Part shown: positions 4,276-14,654 of the stretch, one piece after another
How positions within the stretch are numbered: position 1 is the stretch's first letter
How the letters are laid out: the number at the start of each line of letters is the position of its first letter
Origin: Bacteroides sp.
GTDB taxonomy: Bacteria > Bacteroidota > Bacteroidia > Bacteroidales > Bacteroidaceae
Length of the DNA stretch: 47,322 nucleotides
Reading direction: 5' to 3'
Assembly: GCA_015060705.1 (NCBI GenBank)
Contig: SUXY01000018.1
Coordinates: 1 to 47,322 of the forward strand
Made by a program: the position numbers and the translations under genes
Notes under the pieces: model-generated
Databases searched by the model: none
What the model was told of the DNA's origin: nothing
Seen by the model: only the letters and a program-made list of their open reading frames with translations

Positions 4276-4305
4276 TTGTCAATTCAAGAAAAAGCAGTAC
4301 TTTTG
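4276..4305 (+). promoter_or_regulatory. Bacteroides-type promoter of the short unit at 4337
   Basis: TTG at 4276-4278 is followed after 19 bp by TACTTTTG (4298-4305), a full match to the TANNTTTG -7 box. Transcription would start near 4312, about 25 bases before the small ORF. Confidence 0.7.
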
Positions 4306-4336: not shown

Positions 4337-4429
4337 ATGTTTTTAAAGGTAGAAAGATTGGTAAATTGGTTGCTCTGTCAGTGGATTGACAACAACCCGG
4401 TTGGTGCCTGGGGAATTGGCATCAAGTAA
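4337..4429 (+). CDS. Candidate small protein of 30 residues, Trp-rich
   Basis: This is an ATG-started reading frame of 30 codons, not recognised. The product has three Trp (positions 11, 16 and 25), one Cys, a basic N-terminus (FLKVERLVNWLL) that could form an amphipathic helix, and a Gly-rich tail ending WGIGIK. Three things support it: a consensus promoter about 30 bases upstream, a terminator hairpin starting 9 bases after the stop, and a fit to the whole short transcript. No Shine-Dalgarno is visible, which is usual in this phylum. Alternatives are a small regulatory RNA that happens to contain an ORF, or a leader peptide. Downstream there is no Trp biosynthesis gene to support attenuation. 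Translation is inferred, not shown. Confidence 0.5.
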   Translation: MFLKVERLVNWLLCQWIDNNPVGAWGIGIK

Positions 4430-4437
4430 AAGAAGGC

Positions 4438-4475
4438 GACGGCAAGGGAAAAAGCTCCTGCCGTTTTTTATTTAG
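4438..4475 (+). terminator. Terminator closing the small-ORF transcript
   Basis: ACGGCA plus AGGGA pairs with TCC plus TGCCGT around an A-rich loop and is followed by TTTTTTATTT. With the promoter at 4276 it defines a transcript of roughly 160 nt. Confidence 0.75.
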
Positions 4476-4515
4476 GTAGCCCTTTCAAGTATCCGAAGAA
4501 CTTAGTTCAAACAAG

Positions 4516-4614
4516 GTATACGGGCGTTTACAATAAGACCATACGTCTTACCCCGATAAGATGCTACGTCTTACTGCGATAAGACCATACATCTTTCAGC
4601 GAACGCTCGTATAC
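4516..4614. repeat. Three 23-bp tandem dyads nested in a 13-bp inverted repeat
   Basis: The outer arms are GTATACGGGCGTT (4516-4528) and AACGCTCGTATAC (4602-4614), with one mismatch. Inside are three 17-bp dyads of the form TAAGAC-N5-GTCTTA, starting at 4534, 4557 and 4580, exactly 23 bp apart with 6-bp spacers. The first is perfect and the other two are slightly decayed. The function is unknown. It could be a multi-site binding region for a dimeric protein or a cruciform-forming structure. Confidence 0.7.
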
Positions 4615-4765
4615 GTGAAAATGTACGAAATATGTACCTAGGTTCTACCTACAATGAAAGTGCTCCTTACGTTACAAATAGATAAGAAAAAAGACAATAT
4701 AAAGATTACATGGAGCTTATCTCCATGTAAAGTGAATGAAATATACAAGAAATATGCAAGAATTC

Positions 4766-4796
4766 TTTGAAAATAATGAAAATAATCCTAAATTTG
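4766..4796 (+). promoter_or_regulatory. Full-consensus promoter facing susC, inside the inverted-repeat segment
   Basis: TTTG (4766-4769), then 19 bp, then TAAATTTG (4789-4796). Transcription would start near 4803, giving a leader of about 120 nt that contains the right inverted-repeat arm and a 10-bp palindrome TTAGGCCTAA (4848-4857) before susC at 4925. The rest of 4857-4924 is AT-rich, with nothing else visible. Confidence 0.75.
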
Positions 4797-4924
4797 CGCC
4801 CGTATTTAAAAATAGGTATGCAAAAAGAAGCTAAGTTCTTCGGATACTTAGGCCTAACGATATGAATTTTCAAAACAACTATTTATCTATATTTTAAATT
4901 AATTTACTAACTTAATCGACTTTT

Positions 4925-7900
4925 ATGAAGATTAAAAACCTAGCTCAAAAGGGTAAGTATGTCTTGGTAGCAAGCATACTTGGAATGGCGACAATCTCTT
5001 CGTTCGCTGCTCCTGCAGAACTGGGAGGTACAGAATTGGCTGTTACCCAACAGACTGCAAAAATCAGAGGTACAATCTTGGATGCAAAGAACGGTGAACC
5101 AATCATCGGTGCAAACGTTCTTGTAAAAGGTACTACCAATGGTACAATCACAGATTTTGATGGTAACTATGAACTTGAAGCTCCGGTAGGCTCTACTTTG
5201 ACCGTTTCTTTCATCGGTTACAAGACTATCGAAGTAAAGGCTACTGCTGAAAAACAGACTATTCGTTTGGCCGAAGACACAGAAACTTTGGACGAAGTTA
5301 TCGTTGTTGGTTATACCACTCAACGCAAGGAAAGCTTGACAGGTGCGATGACTACTGTAAAGAGTGATAAGTTGAAGGACGTAACTACTCCTTCTGTAGA
5401 AAATATGTTGAACGGTAAGGTACCGGGCGTATACGTTGCTCCGGGTTCTGGCCAGCCAGGTGCCGGTGGTGCCGTAGTAATCCGTGGTCAGGCTTCATTG
5501 AGCGGTACTACACAGCCATTGTGGGTAATCGACGGTGTTATCGTTGGTAGCAGCGCCGGTGACTTAAATCCTGCTGATATCGAAACCATGACCGTATTGA
5601 AGGATGCTGCTTCTACAGCCATCTATGGTTCGGATGGCGCCAATGGTGTTATCGTGGTAACTACCAAGAAGGGCCGCGAAGGCAAGATGAATGTAAATGC
5701 CTCTGTTAAGATGGGTATCAGCAACGTAAACAACGGTAACTTGGAAGTAATGAACGGTGCAGAATTGTACGATTACTATGCATCTTTCGCTAACGCTAAT
5801 GAAATCTCATTCACTCGTTGGAATTCAGACCTCCGCAACAGCGACTTCAGCTGGTGGGATTTGGCTACACAGACCGGTTTCACTCAAGATTATCACGTAT
5901 CCATCTCGGGCGGTTCAGACAAGCTTCAGTCATATTTCTCTTTGGGTTACTACGATGAAACAGGTGCTGTAAAGGGTTATGACTACAAACGTTACAACTT
6001 CCGTATGAGAACTAGCTACAAGCCATTCTCTTGGTTGACAATCAAGCCATCTATCAGCGGTTCTCGTCGTGACATCTATGACCAACAGTACTCAGTAACA
6101 TCTATGTATTCTCAATTGCCATGGGATAGCCCATACGATGAAAACGGCGAATTGGTACCTCACCGTTATACTGGTTGGGTAAATGCTCAGAATACTAACT
6201 ACTTGTTGGACTACAGCTATGGTAACTATAGCGAATCAACCAACTACGAATTCATGGGTAACCTCGACTTCGATATCCGTATCACAGACTGGTTGATGTT
6301 CACTTCTGTCAACAACTACCGTTTGATCAGTTCTTCTTCACACAGCTACACAGACCCACGTTCTAATGCAGGCGTAGGTGTAAAGGGTCGTTTGTATGAA
6401 TACCGTGGCGAAACAGTACGTCGCTTGAGCAACCAAAACTTGGTTGTAAACAAAGCTTTCGGCAAGCACTCTATCAACGGTCACATCTCATTCGAGTTTA
6501 ATGATTATAGAGGCAAAAGCTTTGCCGGTAACGGTACAGGCTTCCTTCCTGGTTTCCAAGTAATGGACGTAACATCTATTCCAGAATCTATCGGTGGTGG
6601 TATTACAGAATGGGCTAAGATATCTTATTTTACAAAATGGAACTATACATACGATAACAAATACATGGGCGAAGCAATGATTCGTCGTGATGGTGCTTCC
6701 AACTTGGGTACCAATGCACAATATGGTAATTTGTTCTCTGTATCTGGTGGTTGGATTATCAACCGTGAAGAATGGTTCGATGCTGACTGGGTGGACAACT
6801 TGAAGCTCCGTGCATCTTATGGTTCTGCAGGTAACCGTCCTGGCTCAATCTATCCTCAGTACGACTTGTATTCAGCATCATCTAGCTACAACGAACAAGC
6901 TGGTGCATTGATTTCTGTAATCGGTAACAAGGACTTGACTTGGGAAAAGACATTCACAACCGGTATCGGTGTAGACGCTTCGTTCTTCAACAACCGTTTG
7001 CACATGGTATTCGATTACTATATCAAGAATACTGATAACATCATTTTTAACGTTCCCGTAACAGGTTTGACAGGTGTAACTTCTATCTACAAGAACATCG
7101 GTAAGATGCGCAATAGCGGTTTCGAACTTTCTATCGGTGGTGACATCATCCGTACTCAGGACTTGACTTGGAATGTAGAAGCTAACATTTCTCACAATGC
7201 AAATGAATTGAAAGACCTTTATGCACAGAAGCAAGCTGATGGTAGCTTTGCAGTAGTTCCGGTAATCATCAGCGACGGTAGTAGCATTGCCGGTACTATC
7301 AACCGCCGTTTGGAAGTAGGCGAGCCTATCGATACTTACTATGGTAAGGAATGGGCTGGCGTAAACCCTGAAAACGGTGCTCCAATGTGGTACAAGAATG
7401 ATGCCAATGGCAACAAGGTAACTACTTCTAACTATTCAGAAGCTGGCTACTACAAGCTTGGTACTGCTAACCCGAAACTCTTCGGTGGTTTCTCTACATC
7501 ATTGATTTGGAAGAATTTCGATTTGAACGCTGTATTCGGTTATTCAATCGGTGGCCAAATCTACAACTACTCTCGTCAGGAATATGACTCTGACGGTACT
7601 TATACAGACCGTAACCAAATGAAGTTGCACGATGGTTGGAACCGTTGGGAAAAGCCAGGCGATATCGCTACTCACCCGGTTGCTAAGTACAACAACTCAG
7701 ATAAGGGTAACTCGGCTTCTTCACGTTACTTGGAAGATAGCGACTACTTGAAGTTGCGTTCATTGTCTTTGGGTTACAACTTCAACTTGAAGCAATATGG
7801 TATCCAGAACTTGCGCGTTTCTTTGTCGGGTGAAAACTTGTTCACTTTGACAGACTACTCAGGTGTTGACCCTGAAATCCCGGCTTCTAGCGGTTCTGTC

Positions 7901-7972
7901 ATGGGTACAGCAGGCGCTAGCGTTTATCCAACAGTACGCCGCTTCATGCTCGGTCTTAATGTAACATTCTAA
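4925..7972 (+). CDS. SusC/RagA family TonB-dependent outer membrane transporter
   Basis: This 1015-residue protein imports glycan or glycopeptide fragments across the outer membrane with energy from TonB-ExbBD. A signal peptide is visible (basic start, hydrophobic 11-28, cut near AAPAELGG). A carboxypeptidase-regulatory-like domain follows (about 46-118), then the TonB box LDEVIVVGY (122-130), a plug domain (about 135-250, with NPADIETMTVLKDAASTAIYG), and a 22-strand barrel ending with the terminal strand RRFMLGLNVTF, Phe last. susD follows after 19 bp. Codon use is strongly biased, as in the chaperonin genes, so high expression is likely when the promoter is on. Expression may be phase variable through the upstream segment. 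No dedicated regulator sits next to it, and the substrate cannot be read from the sequence. Confidence 0.96.
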   Translation: MKIKNLAQKGKYVLVASILGMATISSFAAPAELGGTELAVTQQTAKIRGTILDAKNGEPIIGANVLVKGTTNGTITDFDGNYELEAPVGSTLTVSFIGYKTIEVKATAEKQTIRLAEDTETLDEVIVVGYTTQRKESLTGAMTTVKSDKLKDVTTPSVENMLNGKVPGVYVAPGSGQPGAGGAVVIRGQASLSGTTQPLWVIDGVIVGSSAGDLNPADIETMTVLKDAASTAIYGSDGANGVIVVTTKKGREGKMNVNASVKMGISNVNNGNLEVMNGAELYDYYASFANANEISFTRWNSDLRNSDFSWWDLATQTGFTQDYHVSISGGSDKLQSYFSLGYYDETGAVKGYDYKRYNFRMRTSYKPFSWLTIKPSISGSRRDIYDQQYSVTSMYSQLPWDSPYDENGELVPHRYTGWVNAQNTNYLLDYSYGNYSESTNYEFMGNLDFDIRITDWLMFTSVNNYRLISSSSHSYTDPRSNAGVGVKGRLYEYRGETVRRLSNQNLVVNKAFGKHSINGHISFEFNDYRGKSFAGNGTGFLPGFQVMDVTSIPESIGGGITEWAKISYFTKWNYTYDNKYMGEAMIRRDGASNLGTNAQYGNLFSVSGGWIINREEWFDADWVDNLKLRASYGSAGNRPGSIYPQYDLYSASSSYNEQAGALISVIGNKDLTWEKTFTTGIGVDASFFNNRLHMVFDYYIKNTDNIIFNVPVTGLTGVTSIYKNIGKMRNSGFELSIGGDIIRTQDLTWNVEANISHNANELKDLYAQKQADGSFAVVPVIISDGSSIAGTINRRLEVGEPIDTYYGKEWAGVNPENGAPMWYKNDANGNKVTTSNYSEAGYYKLGTANPKLFGGFSTSLIWKNFDLNAVFGYSIGGQIYNYSRQEYDSDGTYTDRNQMKLHDGWNRWEKPGDIATHPVAKYNNSDKGNSASSRYLEDSDYLKLRSLSLGYNFNLKQYGIQNLRVSLSGENLFTLTDYSGVDPEIPASSGSVMGTAGASVYPTVRRFMLGLNVTF

Positions 7973-7991: not shown

Positions 7992-9713
7992 ATGAAAAAG
8001 ATATTAACCATTGCATTTGCAGCAGCTGCCTTGACAGCTTGTGATATTGAAAGATTGCCGTATGGCTCTATGTCAGCAGAGCAAATCACCAGCGATCCTT
8101 CTGCATCTCTCGATGCGTTGATGAACGGTGTATATGCACAGTTGAAAACATGGTCAGACCCAATGCACCGTTGTGGTGAATACGCTGGCGACAACATGAT
8201 GATTCGTGGTAGCTCTACCGATGCTTTCTTCGAATTCATTTCTTACTCTCGTACTCCGAACAACTATCGTTTGCAGAACTTCTGGGACTATGGTTACAAG
8301 GGTATCGCACAGGCTTCTAACATCATCAACATGATTGAAGAAGGTCAAAGTGCAGAAATCGACAACAAATTGGGTGAATGTTACTACGTACGCGGTATGC
8401 TCTACTTCTACTTTGTACGTGCATACGGTCGTCCATACTACCAGGCTCCAGACAAGAACCTCGGTGTACCTATCGTAAACGGTACTCCTGAAAACGTAAT
8501 GGGTGACTTGTTCTTGGAAGACCGTGCTACCGTTCACGAAACTTATATGCAAGCTATCAACGACTTGAAGAAGGCAGAAAGCTTGATGACTATCGACAAG
8601 GGGGCTGCTTACGCTTCAAAGGCTGCTGCTCAAGCTATGTTGTCACGTGTTTATTTGTACATGAGTGGTACTTACGAAAATCCGAATACTCAATATGCTC
8701 AGTTGGCAGTAGAATATGCTGATAAGGTAATCAACTCTGGCAACTACTCTTTGTTGAGCCGTGAAGATTTTATGAAGTACAACACTTTCACGCCGGAAAA
8801 CAATGCAGAATCTATCTTCGTTGTTAAGCGTGTAGCTTCTGAATTCTCTGGTTATGACCACTACTATGGTGTAGGCGGTATGTACGCTAACATCGGTGGT
8901 ATGGGTTGGGGCGAAATGTTCGCCAGTGCTAAGTACATCGATTTGTTGAACGAAACAGGCCGTAACGACTGGCGTCCAGACAACTATAAAATTGTAGATG
9001 CTCGTGCTGCGTTCATCGAACCGACTTATCGTGCAGACCACCAGTTGGTATTCCGTTTCATCAAGAGAGACTCTGAAACTGTAGAAAACTACGCTCAGTT
9101 CAATGCAGTAAAGAATGGTACTACTGTAACTTGTACAGATGCTGAAGGTGCTTCTTATACATTGACTCCGGTTAGTGAAGAAGAAGAAATCTACACTATC
9201 GAATACCAAGGTGCAACTTACGAAGGTGTATTGGACTACTTCATCAATTTGAACCGTGTATATCCACAGTTCTACATCACTAAGTGTTCTCGTGAAGGCG
9301 AAGATTCTCACTTGCATTCACCAGTTATCAGCCGTTTGGGTGAAATCTACTTGAACCGTGCAGAAGCTTACGCTAAGTTGGGTCAATACTCTAACGCATT
9401 GGCAGACTTGAACACTATCCGTGAACGTTCAATCGTAGGTGGCGGTTATGCTTCTTTGGATGCCAGCAACGCTGGTGACTTGATTGACAAGGAACGTCAG
9501 TTGGAATTGGCATACCAAGCAGAACGTAGCTACGACGTATTCCGTAACGGTAAGCCATTGGATCGTTCATTCCCTGGTCCTCACAACCAGGCTGAAATTG
9601 TAGAAGCTAGCGACTATCGTGTAACTTACTACATCCCACAAAACGCTATCAACGCTTATCCGGGTACTTTGACTCAGAACCCGACTGATAACAGTGGCGT
9701 TATCTTGAACTAA
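7992..9713 (+). CDS. SusD/RagB family surface nutrient-binding lipoprotein
   Basis: This is the partner of SusC, forming the lid of the outer membrane import complex. The 573-residue product starts with a lipoprotein signal (MKKILTIAFAAAALTAC, lipidated Cys17). SusD-type helical repeats follow, with LGECYYVRGMLYFYFVRAYG (TPR-like) and the C-terminal hallmark SRLGEIYLNRAEAYAKLG then DLNTIRERS and LIDKERQLELAYQAERSYD. It follows susC by 19 bp with the same codon bias, so the pair is one operon. The strong hairpin after it ends the unit, meaning no enzyme is co-transcribed with the pair. Confidence 0.96.
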   Translation: MKKILTIAFAAAALTACDIERLPYGSMSAEQITSDPSASLDALMNGVYAQLKTWSDPMHRCGEYAGDNMMIRGSSTDAFFEFISYSRTPNNYRLQNFWDYGYKGIAQASNIINMIEEGQSAEIDNKLGECYYVRGMLYFYFVRAYGRPYYQAPDKNLGVPIVNGTPENVMGDLFLEDRATVHETYMQAINDLKKAESLMTIDKGAAYASKAAAQAMLSRVYLYMSGTYENPNTQYAQLAVEYADKVINSGNYSLLSREDFMKYNTFTPENNAESIFVVKRVASEFSGYDHYYGVGGMYANIGGMGWGEMFASAKYIDLLNETGRNDWRPDNYKIVDARAAFIEPTYRADHQLVFRFIKRDSETVENYAQFNAVKNGTTVTCTDAEGASYTLTPVSEEEEIYTIEYQGATYEGVLDYFINLNRVYPQFYITKCSREGEDSHLHSPVISRLGEIYLNRAEAYAKLGQYSNALADLNTIRERSIVGGGYASLDASNAGDLIDKERQLELAYQAERSYDVFRNGKPLDRSFPGPHNQAEIVEASDYRVTYYIPQNAINAYPGTLTQNPTDNSGVILN

Positions 9714-10561: not shown

Positions 10562-10601
10562 AAAAAAGTAGGGTGTGTCATTGGACACACCCTATTCTTT
10601 T
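10562..10601. terminator. Bidirectional terminator between the Rpn remnant and the M60 gene
   Basis: TAGGGTGTGTC (10569-10579) and GACACACCCTA (10584-10594) form a perfect 11-bp stem with loop ATTG. It has an A-run on the left and TTCTTTT on the right, so it works for both converging genes. It overlaps the end of the M60 coding region. Confidence 0.85.
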
Positions 10602-12893
10602 ACCATCCGCTTGTACAGCATACACTTCCACATCATCATCAAACGGTATGGAAGCAGGTACGGAGAATTTAAACTTATTGGAGAAATAGACCAATCGGCC
10701 TGCCTTGTACAATTCAAAAGCCACCGCTTCAGTACCATTCTTGAGTTCAATAATCTGCCCATTACGGGTATGCGTAATCGTCTGAGTGATTTTTTGATTT
10801 TCCTTGAACTGGGTATAATAACCCACATCAGCCGGTTCTACGTCCAGACCTACATCCCCAGCCTTACGGTCTTCCAAATAATAGAAAGGAGCTGCCTTCT
10901 TAGGGAACGATGCCATGTATGCCTTAGCCTCATCAATCATCTCCTGAGTAACATGATAGGTCCAATTGCCATACTGTGAATAAGCCACATTATCTACCGG
11001 CTTGAAGAAACCCCACATATCGAAAAACTCGGTCAAGTCTTCGTTCGCCACTTTACAGGCTGTCTTGGCAAACAACAATTGTCCGGCCCCCGGATCCGTT
11101 TCCACAATACGTGTCTCACGCAATGCCTTGAACATCTCCGGCCAAAAATCAGGCTGATAACCACAACGATGATAGTAATTGAACAACTGCCAATGCATGC
11201 GCAAGTGAATCTCGGTTGCTTCATTTTGGTAAACATTTTCACCACCCATATCAAACCATCCATCGCCTTCTATCAAGCGGTACTGGGCCAACTTATCCAA
11301 CGTCTCCCCACGGGAACAATACTTACCCAACTTATAGAGCGTATAGTTTGCAAACAGATTATTGGAAGATTCCGTACAACTTGGCCAATTAATGGCTCGC
11401 TGATGAATGTGACCAATCTCATGAGCCGGTCCCCAGGCATTGTCCTTGGCAGCCATTACATTTTCCTTCAGCAAGATATTCTTTAAATAAGTATACACAA
11501 AGCCTACCCGATAATCCGAAGCCCACATGTAACTCCCCTCCGGAGATATAGCAAAGAGGTGATTGTTCATCTGCGAAGGGAAAACATCTTCGATGCCCAT
11601 CAACTCATGTTGCCAACCCACAATATCGTCCCATAGGCCAATGGCAGAAAGAATATCCTCTGGAACGGCCTCTTGCAACTTGTCCCGGTGAAAATAGAAC
11701 ATCATCCGTTCACCACGAACACAGAAATACTTGTAAGAAGATTGAGCAATCAGTTCCTTATACTTCGCATTCGTCTGATGTTTTTTCAAGTCCCAATATC
11801 CAGCCACTTCGCCACCTCCCAACGGGATATGAATCTTGATAGGCTTTGCATTCGGAGAAGCCAAATCCGTGTGATAAAGCACAAACAGCATCCCCGCCTG
11901 TTTCACCTTGATTTTATTAATGCCCGATTGCAAGAAAAAGGATTCCCCCGAGGCGGCCGTTTGCACATAATCGCCGACTTGTTCTTCGCCTACATTCTGC
12001 ACACTGACAGGCTGTCCGTATGTATCACCTACCAAAATCAGGATTTCGTCATTCGCCTTCACGGTAATACCTGTAGGGTTGTCCAGCAACGTATACTTTC
12101 TGGTCATCAACTTCTCTGCCCACTCTATCGGGTCACTATATGGTTGATATTCCTGTATACGGAACTCCTTCTCGTAATCCGTATATACCTTATCACGGAG
12201 ATTTCTAGCCAACTTGGCAAAATAAGGCTGCAAAGCTTCAATCGCCTCATCGGTCACACCCGATTTCAAAGCCGAACAAGAAAGATCCGTAAACACCGAT
12301 AACAGTTCCTCGTCCATGGATGTATTTCGGGTAAAGAACTGCATCTCACTACAACTAACATACGAGTATCCCGTTCCGTCTCCCAGTCCTGTTTTGACCA
12401 CAAACTTTACCTTAGTAACTCCCTTCAACGTTTCTTTGAGACTGATGCGGCTGGATGCACTCTGCATCTTGAAATCATAAGATCCATAAAGTACATATTC
12501 CGATTGGCTTTCCGTTGCTATATACAAATCAAACTCTCCGAAATTGCCATTTCCATTGCGGGTATGATAAACAATATAGTCCATATCCGCTTTCCCATCA
12601 AAGAAATATTCCAATGTTACGGGAAATTTGGTACCTGTACCCCAAAGAGAATGGTAATGATTGGACGGATCGGTATCCCCATCCCATGTCTTTTCAATGC
12701 CATAACCATTCTGAGCCTCGCTTGCCTGGCCTCCAGTAGGATTAATCAGGATATCACCTTCGATATCCGAAATCATACCTTCTTCTTCCAAAGGAGGAAA
12801 ATCATCAATAATACTCTCTTCGTTATTGCTACAACCTGTAAAAAGGCAAACCATCAATATCCATGCCCATAATCGAATGTTTTTCATCTTCAT
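10578..12893 (-). CDS. M60-like (PF13402) zinc metallopeptidase lipoprotein, probable O-glycopeptidase
   Basis: This 771-residue lipoprotein (lipobox LFTGC, Cys21) probably faces the cell exterior. Residues about 50-190 form a discoidin/F5-8C-type module (AQNGYGIEKTWDGDTDPSNHYHS, ending VSCSEMQFF), which suggests carbohydrate binding. The peptidase domain (about 240-620) carries HEIGH at 491-495 (zinc ligands His491 and His495, catalytic Glu492), with Glu508 a candidate third ligand. Characterised M60-like enzymes cut mucin-type O-glycoproteins next to a GalNAc-bearing Ser/Thr. A second ATG two codons in is equally possible as start. It lies 102 bp downstream of the GH109 gene on the same strand, with a terminator between, so some readthrough or a separate promoter is needed. 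The glycopeptidase role is inferred from the family and its neighbour. Confidence 0.88.
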   Translation of the reverse strand: MKMKNIRLWAWILMVCLFTGCSNNEESIIDDFPPLEEEGMISDIEGDILINPTGGQASEAQNGYGIEKTWDGDTDPSNHYHSLWGTGTKFPVTLEYFFDGKADMDYIVYHTRNGNGNFGEFDLYIATESQSEYVLYGSYDFKMQSASSRISLKETLKGVTKVKFVVKTGLGDGTGYSYVSCSEMQFFTRNTSMDEELLSVFTDLSCSALKSGVTDEAIEALQPYFAKLARNLRDKVYTDYEKEFRIQEYQPYSDPIEWAEKLMTRKYTLLDNPTGITVKANDEILILVGDTYGQPVSVQNVGEEQVGDYVQTAASGESFFLQSGINKIKVKQAGMLFVLYHTDLASPNAKPIKIHIPLGGGEVAGYWDLKKHQTNAKYKELIAQSSYKYFCVRGERMMFYFHRDKLQEAVPEDILSAIGLWDDIVGWQHELMGIEDVFPSQMNNHLFAISPEGSYMWASDYRVGFVYTYLKNILLKENVMAAKDNAWGPAHEIGHIHQRAINWPSCTESSNNLFANYTLYKLGKYCSRGETLDKLAQYRLIEGDGWFDMGGENVYQNEATEIHLRMHWQLFNYYHRCGYQPDFWPEMFKALRETRIVETDPGAGQLLFAKTACKVANEDLTEFFDMWGFFKPVDNVAYSQYGNWTYHVTQEMIDEAKAYMASFPKKAAPFYYLEDRKAGDVGLDVEPADVGYYTQFKENQKITQTITHTRNGQIIELKNGTEAVAFELYKAGRLVYFSNKFKFSVPASIPFDDDVEVYAVQADGKRIGCVQ

Positions 12894-12929
12894 CAGTCTT
12901 AAGTTTTGTTTGCCGTAAATATATAAAAA

Positions 12930-12974
12930 AAGAGGCTTTAACCCCTTCTTTTTAAACAGGGATTAAAGCCTCTT
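12930..12974 (-). terminator. Terminator after the GH109 gene
   Basis: AAGAGGCTTTAA (12930-12941) is the exact reverse complement of 12963-12974, and CCC/GGG can extend the stem. Reading leftwards it is followed by a T6 run. It separates the GH109 and M60 genes. Confidence 0.85.
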
Positions 12975-12995
12975 AACACTCCTTTTTATTCGGAA

Positions 12996-14654
12996 TTATT
13001 TCTTAGCCTTCAAAATCTTTGCAATCTGAGCATCGAGCTTAGCAGCAGCCTTCACGTACTTCTTTTCAGCACTAGCCTTAGCCTTGCCTTCTGCATTCTT
13101 TGCAGCATCATAAAGCGCCCAAAGGTTCAACTTAGCAGTTGCTTCCTTCTGTGCAGCAGTGTAAGCATCAGCAGCAGCTTCAGTAGCAGCTTCTTGTTCT
13201 GCTGGAGCATAAGCGTGCTTGTAACCCTTCACGTCGTTCCAGTGACCACGTGTAAAGTCAGGGAATGTAACAGCAGCACAGTTGTTATCCATAGAAATAG
13301 CACCAAGTTCTGCCAAAGCACACCATTCAGCCATATCGTATACGTCCATATCGAGTGGCAAACCATTCTGCAAGCAGTAAACAAGACGAGCATCCATGAT
13401 GTAGTCCATACCACCGTGACCCATTTCACGACCCTTTTCACCATACTTAGTCAAGATTGGGTGATAGTACTTCTTGGTCAAAGCATCCTTTTGTTCCTTG
13501 TTCAAGAAACCATGAGCGTTGAGGTTATCTACCTTCGGAGCACCTGTACCCTTCAACACATTACCATCAATTGCAAATTCAGGAGTCGGATACTTAGTTG
13601 CATAACCCTTAGTACCTGTCAACTTGAACAAACGGTTATAAGGTTGCGGAGTCATTACGTTGTGCTGGATTTCAACTACCTTACCGTTAGCTGTACGCAT
13701 CAAAGTAGTAGTGTGGTCACCATTACGGAATTCCTTTACATCCTTACCGATATTTTCCTTAATCCAGTTCTTACCAGCAAAGCTTTCAGTATCCATCGCA
13801 ATCAAAGTAGTGAAACGGTCACCACGGTGAATATCCATACATTGTGCCACAGGGCCAAGGCCATGAGTAGCATATACGTCACCACGGTTTTCCATGTTGT
13901 ACTTCATACGCCAGTGGAGGTTATCCTTATCATTGTCATTTGGATCCTTCCAGTAATACTTCCAGAAAGCAGACAATTCATGAATGTAAGCACCTTCAGC
14001 ACGGATGATTTCACCAAACACACCGTCCTGAGCCATAGCCAAAGCATTCATTTCATAATAGTCATAGCAGCAGTTTTCGAGGATAAAGCAGTGCAAACGA
14101 GTCTTTTCAGACAAATCGATCAACTCCCAGCATTGTTCGAGGTTCATAGCTGAAGGAACTTCAATAGCTGTGTGCTTGCCATTTTCCATCGCAAACTTAG
14201 CCACAGGGAAGTGGTGGTTCCAGTCAGTAGCTACATAAACGAGGTCGATGTCCGGACGCTTGCAAAGTTCTTCATAACCCTTTTCGCCTGAATAAATAGC
14301 TGCCGGAGCCAAACCTGCCTTACGGAGATATTCCTGCTGCTTTTCAGCACGTTCTGCTTCGTAGTCACAAAGTGCAACGATTTCAACACCAGGGATGTGG
14401 CAGAAACGATTTACAGCTCCAGGGCCACGCATACCCAAACCAACGAAAGCTACACGTACAGTCTGAATAGGATCGGCCTTCAAACCAAGTACATGTTCTT
14501 GACCTGCAGGACGCTGAGGAGTATCTATAACGATAGTTCCCTTGTCCCAATGCCACTTAGTAGATGGTGACAATGATTGTGCACCCACTGTCTGGAATGA
14601 CATTGCCAATACTGCAACAAGAGCAATGGCAAAAAATCTGTTCAGTCTCTTCAT
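12996..14654 (-). CDS. GH109-type NAD-dependent glycosidase (Gfo/Idh/MocA fold), probable alpha-N-acetylgalactosaminidase
   Basis: This 552-residue exported protein has a signal peptide (hydrophobic 8-20, cut near VGAQS). The Rossmann domain begins VRVAFVGLGMRGPGAV, with the dinucleotide-binding glycines at 72-77. The domain continues through VATDWNHHFPVA and IEVPSAMN. The GH109 hallmark YATHGLGPVAQ (261-271) and the following DIHRGDRF match the family of NAD-dependent hydrolases that remove alpha-GalNAc, for example from the Tn antigen. From about residue 478 there is a 75-residue Ala/Lys/Glu-rich tail (coiled-coil-like), which is not part of the fold. A consensus promoter lies upstream. Codon bias is strong, like susCD. 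Together with the M60 peptidase it suggests stepwise attack on O-glycosylated protein. Other Gfo/Idh activities are less likely. Confidence 0.88.
   Translation of the reverse strand: MKRLNRFFAIALVAVLAMSFQTVGAQSLSPSTKWHWDKGTIVIDTPQRPAGQEHVLGLKADPIQTVRVAFVGLGMRGPGAVNRFCHIPGVEIVALCDYEAERAEKQQEYLRKAGLAPAAIYSGEKGYEELCKRPDIDLVYVATDWNHHFPVAKFAMENGKHTAIEVPSAMNLEQCWELIDLSEKTRLHCFILENCCYDYYEMNALAMAQDGVFGEIIRAEGAYIHELSAFWKYYWKDPNDNDKDNLHWRMKYNMENRGDVYATHGLGPVAQCMDIHRGDRFTTLIAMDTESFAGKNWIKENIGKDVKEFRNGDHTTTLMRTANGKVVEIQHNVMTPQPYNRLFKLTGTKGYATKYPTPEFAIDGNVLKGTGAPKVDNLNAHGFLNKEQKDALTKKYYHPILTKYGEKGREMGHGGMDYIMDARLVYCLQNGLPLDMDVYDMAEWCALAELGAISMDNNCAAVTFPDFTRGHWNDVKGYKHAYAPAEQEAATEAAADAYTAAQKEATAKLNLWALYDAAKNAEGKAKASAEKKYVKAAAKLDAQIAKILKAKK

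Follow-up and report, generated by a model that had tools for sequence, protein, structure and literature searches.

A putative phase-variable promoter switch upstream of a susCD operon in Bacteroides, most likely flipped by a tyrosine recombinase

Region 4487-4849 of the analysed DNA is very probably a phase-variable promoter switch of a susCD operon, flipped by a tyrosine recombinase that most likely belongs to a family encoded on contigs C54 and C72 of the same genome. The window, i.e. the whole stretch of 47,322 nt under analysis, is contig C55 of a 2.95-Mb, 118-contig Bacteroides sp. genome that is 88% complete (labelled G000). An invertible promoter at susCD had been proposed in a preliminary description of this DNA, and this reading is supported by comparison between species rather than by reads: orthologous segments occur in four related species, in two of which, G019 and G011, they lie in opposite orientations.

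In the proposed mechanism, a site-specific tyrosine recombinase would pair two oppositely oriented 15-bp sites and invert the intervening DNA. As read here, the promoter would fire into susC-susD (ON). After inversion its -7 box would be located at 4540-4547 on the minus strand, aimed leftward at the upstream terminator, and susCD would be OFF, since no TANNTTTG box was found between the right arm and the susC ATG. Inversion in this strain, the acting enzyme and the effect on expression are predictions of this model. The features concerned are compiled in Table 1.

Table 1. Features of the predicted switch and its surroundings (window coordinates)
Feature	Position	Strand	Remarks
Left inverted-repeat arm	4487..4505	+	core recombination site AGTATCCGAAGAACT at 4488-4502
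Right inverted-repeat arm	4831..4849	-	core site 4834-4848, AGTTCTTCGGATACT on the + strand
Predicted invertible segment	4506..4830	.	325 bp between the arms; orthologous segment in both orientations in G019/G011
Whole switch including arms	4487..4849		363 bp
Palindromic element	4509..4616	.	three 23-bp units, about 100 bp; 26 places in the genome
Bacteroides-type promoter	4766..4796	+	TTTG (4766-4769), 19-bp spacer, TAAATTTG (4789-4796); points at susC (ON orientation); sequence match
susC (SusC/RagA TonB-dependent transporter)	4925..7972	+	TIGR04056, 825 bits; predicted switch target
susD	7992..9713	+	PF14322, PF07980; co-directional with susC, 19 bp after it
Terminator-like hairpin with T run	4434..4470	+	after upstream small ORF; read by eye

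The arms are 100% complementary over 19 nt each at a distance of 325 nt, as the preliminary description had it, and constitute the sole perfect inverted repeat of at least 15 bp in the window (arm distance up to 2000, loop of at least 50). When the whole window was simulated 60 times with an order-2 Markov model, no run yielded an arm above 16 bp. Both arms lie downstream of a small gene and its terminator and ahead of the susC ATG. Facing short inverted repeats surround the promoter, the arrangement that characterizes invertible promoters of the Bacteroidales, and the -33 TTTG and -7 TANNTTTG elements inside the segment, identified by sequence match, would serve the gene in one orientation only. 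It had also been claimed that a full-consensus promoter in the segment points at susC and that the opposite strand holds no matching box. Both claims were borne out: the gap between the TAAATTTG box and the susC ATG is 128 nt, and on both strands of 4425-4984 the only TANNTTTG box is that of this promoter. Arms well beyond chance expectation together with a single inside promoter aimed at susC count for a switch. Function probably resides in the 15-bp site AGTTCTTCGGATACT (4488-4502 on the minus and 4834-4848 on the plus strand) and not in the full 19-bp arm.

The best solved relative of the susC product is 8aa4, a SusC homolog. The next promoter match upstream (4276-4305) lies ahead of a small ORF and the terminator-like hairpin, the latter recognized by eye, which would isolate susC from upstream transcription. 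This 30-codon tryptophan-rich ORF (4337-4429) between its own promoter and the terminator looks like a conserved leader-type peptide; similar small ORFs were noticed by eye after the NUDIX gene in loci L039, L040 and L043, and the promoter stretch of the ORF matches many genomes of the genus. The NUDIX neighbor was tried as an anchor for the locus and dropped: six of 80 loci (228 confirmed) were read downstream, and none showed by eye a susC gene directly there, so susCD is not generally located beside NUDIX. Bacteroides, Phocaeicola and Bacteroidaceae assemblies, many of animal-gut origin, make up most of the top-ranking named relatives of this NUDIX gene, suggesting a Phocaeicola-type commensal. 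Downstream of susCD, on the opposite strand, genes for an M60 (enhancin-like) peptidase and GH109 occupy 10578-14654, and in G033 (L038/L125) an M60 peptidase gene sits directly upstream of susC. These neighbors suggest use of mucin-type glycopeptides.

The susC protein was searched in 61 genomes of the genus, with only 12 or 13 candidates scored per genome, which yielded at least 15 orthologs at 60% identity or more, including that of the window. G007, whose upstream region is mostly masked, and G042, where the contig ends, were dropped, leaving 13 readable orthologs. A facing AGT-N9-ACT pair with sites 158 to 346 bp apart is present in five of these 13, namely those encoding the five most similar proteins: G000 itself, G025 (81%), G040 (79%, partial), and G019 and G011 (75% each). 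Three of the five segments (G000, G025, G011) have their inside -7 box directed toward susC, and two (G019, G040) have it directed away. Each of the eight orthologs devoid of a pair has a -7 box facing susC, with an additional box pointing away further upstream in G055, G028 and G015. No facing pair was detected at six paralogs of 43-44% identity.

The arms of G019 and G011 are identical to each other (AGTATTTTAAGAACT). Compared to direct alignment, which gave 140 identities, the 257-bp inner segments share 196 identities when one is taken as reverse complement (mean 139 and maximum 149 in 50 shuffles), whereas their flanks align in direct orientation with 217/239 and 249/266 identical positions. 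At this orthologous locus the segment therefore occurs in both orientations across sister species, which we regard as the decisive case for the predicted inversion. The comparison of G025 and G040 leans weakly to the reverse complement (91 vs 80 identities, without shuffle control). The full promoter with -33 and -7 elements is found in the segments of G000, G025 and G040, pointing away from susC in the last. The segments of G019 and G011 contain the -7 box only, with no TTG at the distance asked by the full promoter pattern, and immediately beyond the segment both genomes have another -7 box that faces away from susC, which counts against the switch reading. G033 matches the start of the window's susC with 89% DNA identity across some 210 bp, but no arms were found upstream of susC and the promoter there appears by eye to be fixed. 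Gain or loss of switch control at this operon thus seems to be rapid. The sequence AGTATCTGAAGA in the G033 susC leader was considered as a remnant arm and, being imperfect and in the wrong orientation, was not used.

Each arm of the window contains a 15-bp site of the form AGT-N9-ACT. Since this motif was first derived from the window and contig C57, independent tests are provided by contig C31, the orthologs and the recombinase loci. In the own genome, the regions upstream of 28 of the 31 Plug-domain genes were searched, comprising 26 stretches (one of only 96 bp) plus the window, and a facing pair was defined by at least 13/15 matches within 1 kb. Among these 27 stretches AGT-N9-ACT formed three facing pairs, compared to one for the other 63 trinucleotides together. 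Besides the window, the pairs are located on C57 (AGTTCTGCTTGTACT, 211 bp apart) and C31 (AGTTCTTCATGTACT/AGTTCTTCATGGACT, 157 bp), and each of the three encloses a promoter aimed at a SusC/TonB-receptor gene. Likewise, 20 ortholog and paralog stretches contained five facing AGT pairs, one of them likely due to chance, vs one for control trinucleotides. A further species, G037, has a one-mismatch pair in the gap that separates the end of an upstream gene from a susC. The signal is confined to facing pairs: single AGT-type sites are not enriched (89 matches vs 147 for the reversed control), and single-site scans, falling below reversed controls, carry no weight on their own.

When the threshold was lowered to 12/15, unequal arms differed only at position 4 or 12 (C31, C54, G040, G037, L300, L305). 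The sole exception, the 109/411 pair of L280 with mismatches at positions 5 and 8, was taken as chance. Because mismatches within pairs are restricted to these two positions, the central 7 bp are constant, and indeed identical, within each accepted pair, while all seven pairs of the own genome (window, C57, C31, two on C32, C54 and C72) have different centers. Given the mechanism of tyrosine recombinases, constancy within and difference between pairs is what their overlap region would look like. A private overlap sequence per locus would allow one enzyme to serve several promoters without joining them.

The expectation that the arms are repeated elsewhere stood in part. Neither the own genome nor the 60 relatives contain a further intergenic copy of the exact arm. 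With up to three mismatches allowed, it occurs at seven places in the own genome, the two arms and five in open frames, and its 13-bp core matches 20 times in 61 genomes, the two arms and 18 in open frames of at least 90 codons; both were rejected as regulon marks. Thus, the exact arm marks no regulon, but the relaxed site class does, being present at SusC/TonB-receptor promoters and at genes of the recombinase family.

Several further loci came to light. A 17-bp inverted repeat in L184, between divergent susC genes and with three promoter matches inside, was discarded as a shared EPVIGA coding motif recognized by eye, and the inverted repeats of L173, L201 and L208 were rejected as switches because no promoter match lies inside. 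L265 (G000:C32:50819-51670) comprises two tandem small segments with facing AGTTC-type sites 137 and 141 bp apart, located between short ORFs (starting MRKNYVKP/MMEKKSYVKP) and a DegT-type aminotransferase gene; the pattern used found no promoter match in them. In L271 (G000:C72:18612-25234) two 15-bp palindromic sites (AGTTCCCCCGGAACT and its inverse) lie 6.6 kb apart, one before susC and one before a recombinase gene, and enclose DnaB/Toprim-like and Lin1244-like genes, making it a candidate invertible block or pair of mobile-element ends. Two contigs of G000, C11 at its start (L205) and C61 at its end (L273), terminate at the same-class site AGTTCCCAGAGAACT, beside a third tyrosine recombinase; a repeat or mixed orientation may have stopped the assembler there.

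A whole-genome search for tyrosine or serine recombinases, suggested earlier as a check, returned 13 Phage_integrase and four Resolvase matches, none of them on the contig of the window. The candidate family consists of proteins of about 385 aa with an Arm-DNA-bind_5/Phage_int_SAM_5/Phage_integrase architecture, encoded on C54 and C72. The gene for the C54 protein (386 aa) adjoins susC and is enclosed by a facing pair of the same class, one site of which lies inside the susC frame; the C72 protein (385 aa) shares 54% identity with the C54 protein. At E 1e-80 or better, 54 matches to the family came from 45 of the 61 genomes. At least 18 loci carry a facing AGT pair (18 of the 30 loci returned of the 54 matches, with C72 of the own genome among the 30), the next best trinucleotides at the same 30 loci being AAA with seven and TGA with five. 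The remaining 12, including those of G040, G037 and C72, showed no facing pair within the stretch scanned. In 17 of the 18 cases the pair straddles the gene of the recombinase, and one of its sites falls into a frame in which a short pattern recognized SusC-type N-terminal motifs. The second site falls, in 14 of the 17, into an outward-reading frame on the opposite side of the gene. Six of these frames were translated, and all six contain a TonB Plug domain without a CarboxypepD_reg domain, i.e. they are SusC bodies without the head. The layout is that of a cassette that would move one susC head between two bodies. In such loci of relatives (L300-L326), which look like two-way SusC head-swapping cassettes, facing sites flank the recombinase gene: one falls within the coding sequence of susC, its partner within a SusC body that lacks the head. 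Translated at L309, the site AGTTCTGCAAAGACT gives S-S-A-K-T.

Since AGT-N9-ACT pairs straddle its genes in 17 of the 30 loci, the C54/C72 family is likely to provide the enzyme of the switch, to which it is tied by adjacency to the sites. These 17 loci link the family to the site class, not to action at the window, and genomes that lack a pair at their susC ortholog encode the family as well, which counts against the assignment. We therefore also weighed a real switch operated by another enzyme, either a different phage-integrase-type protein or a serine recombinase (Mpi/Hin-type) of this genome. The number of integrase and resolvase matches, their absence from the window's contig and the link by adjacency leave some room for this alternative, as does a 212-aa serine recombinase encoded on C57, the contig of the second SusC switch, which is distantly like Mpi (68.7 bits vs a cut-off of 272). 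The straddling of C72/C54 family genes by the same site class argues against it. Serine invertases have a 2-bp core, whereas the variable central 7 bp that are identical within pairs fit a tyrosine-recombinase overlap. We consider another enzyme unlikely, though it is the strongest of the alternatives.

Improbable, and more so than a different enzyme, is a locked or decayed switch with intact arms, at which inversion has ceased in this lineage and susCD is constitutive or otherwise regulated. The own species is known in the one orientation read here, and in the close relative G033 the promoter at this position looks fixed by eye. Against this speak the 19-bp arms without a single mismatch, a state that would be expected to decay soon at an idle site, and the existence of both orientations among sister species.

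The palindromic element between the arms is dispersed and not specific to invertible segments. Its pattern matched 65 times in the genome vs once in the control, and it was also matched in a few relatives. As single-stranded DNA it folds far better than shuffles (z -4.6) and is possibly a REP-like repeat. Copies in L118 (2413-2812) and L123 (2449-2746) lie inside perfect inverted repeats of 14 and 16 bp that are unrelated to the window arms, enclose no promoter match and are possibly larger composite repeats. A diverged copy was seen by eye inside the C57 segment, and its presence in two switches may be coincidence. That the arms are a chance or structural feature (hairpin, terminator or repeat element) without recombination is highly improbable: the element does lie between them and two of its seven other copies read sit inside inverted repeats of their own, but the arms are outside the element, exceed chance and represent a site class that recurs at further SusC promoters, and none of these seven copies was accompanied by them.

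A phase-variable promoter switch flipped by a tyrosine recombinase thus remains our preferred reading. It would extend the phase-variable nutrient receptors by a Phocaeicola-type SusCD pair, and sister species would offer one orthologous switch in natural ON-like and OFF-like states. Private 7-bp centers combined with shared half-sites make a testable rule by which one recombinase could act on many promoters without rearranging the chromosome. We see about even chances for a broader view, in which, within this genus, the recombinase of the SusC head-swapping cassette, with its sites inside the coding sequence of susC, also flips separate SusC promoters, the 7-bp centers keep the loci apart so that one enzyme runs many independent switches, and sister species differ in which susCD operons have come under or escaped such control.

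For the tyrosine recombinase Tsr0667 of Bacteroides fragilis, Nakayama-Imaohji reportedly gave in 2009 the site consensus AGTYYYN4GDACT. Relative to this consensus the window site AGTTCTTCGGATACT is off at one constrained position (position 11, A for G) and the G019/G011 site likewise fits except for A in place of G, while the C57 and C31 sites fit in full.

The capsule promoters of Bacteroidales that are controlled by the serine master invertase Mpi are flanked by the repeat ARACGTTCGTN (PMC8375218). The window resembles them in having a Bacteroides-consensus promoter between short inverted repeats with predicted ON/OFF control, but differs in the repeat, the probable enzyme class and the target, which is SusCD instead of capsule; inspection by eye found no ARACGTTCGTN on either strand of the arm AAGTATCCGAAGAACTTAG. 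With PhaseFinder, SusC/SusD and polysaccharide invertible regions were found in gut Bacteroidales, including Phocaeicola dorei (PMC10939037), so that SusC/SusD-linked inversions in this group are already in print. Like these regions, the window switch is flanked by inverted repeats and lies in or near susC/susD genes; there, reads provide evidence for both orientations, whereas here comparison between species does. The switch resembles the Tsr0667 system, which controls SusC/SusD invertible regions in B. fragilis (PMC4747536, PMC11852207). Both share the target genes, the tyrosine-recombinase setting, a 15-bp AGT...ACT site and the combination of local susC shuffling with separate inversions elsewhere, and the private central 7 bp per locus noted here set the present sites apart from Tsr0667 as described.
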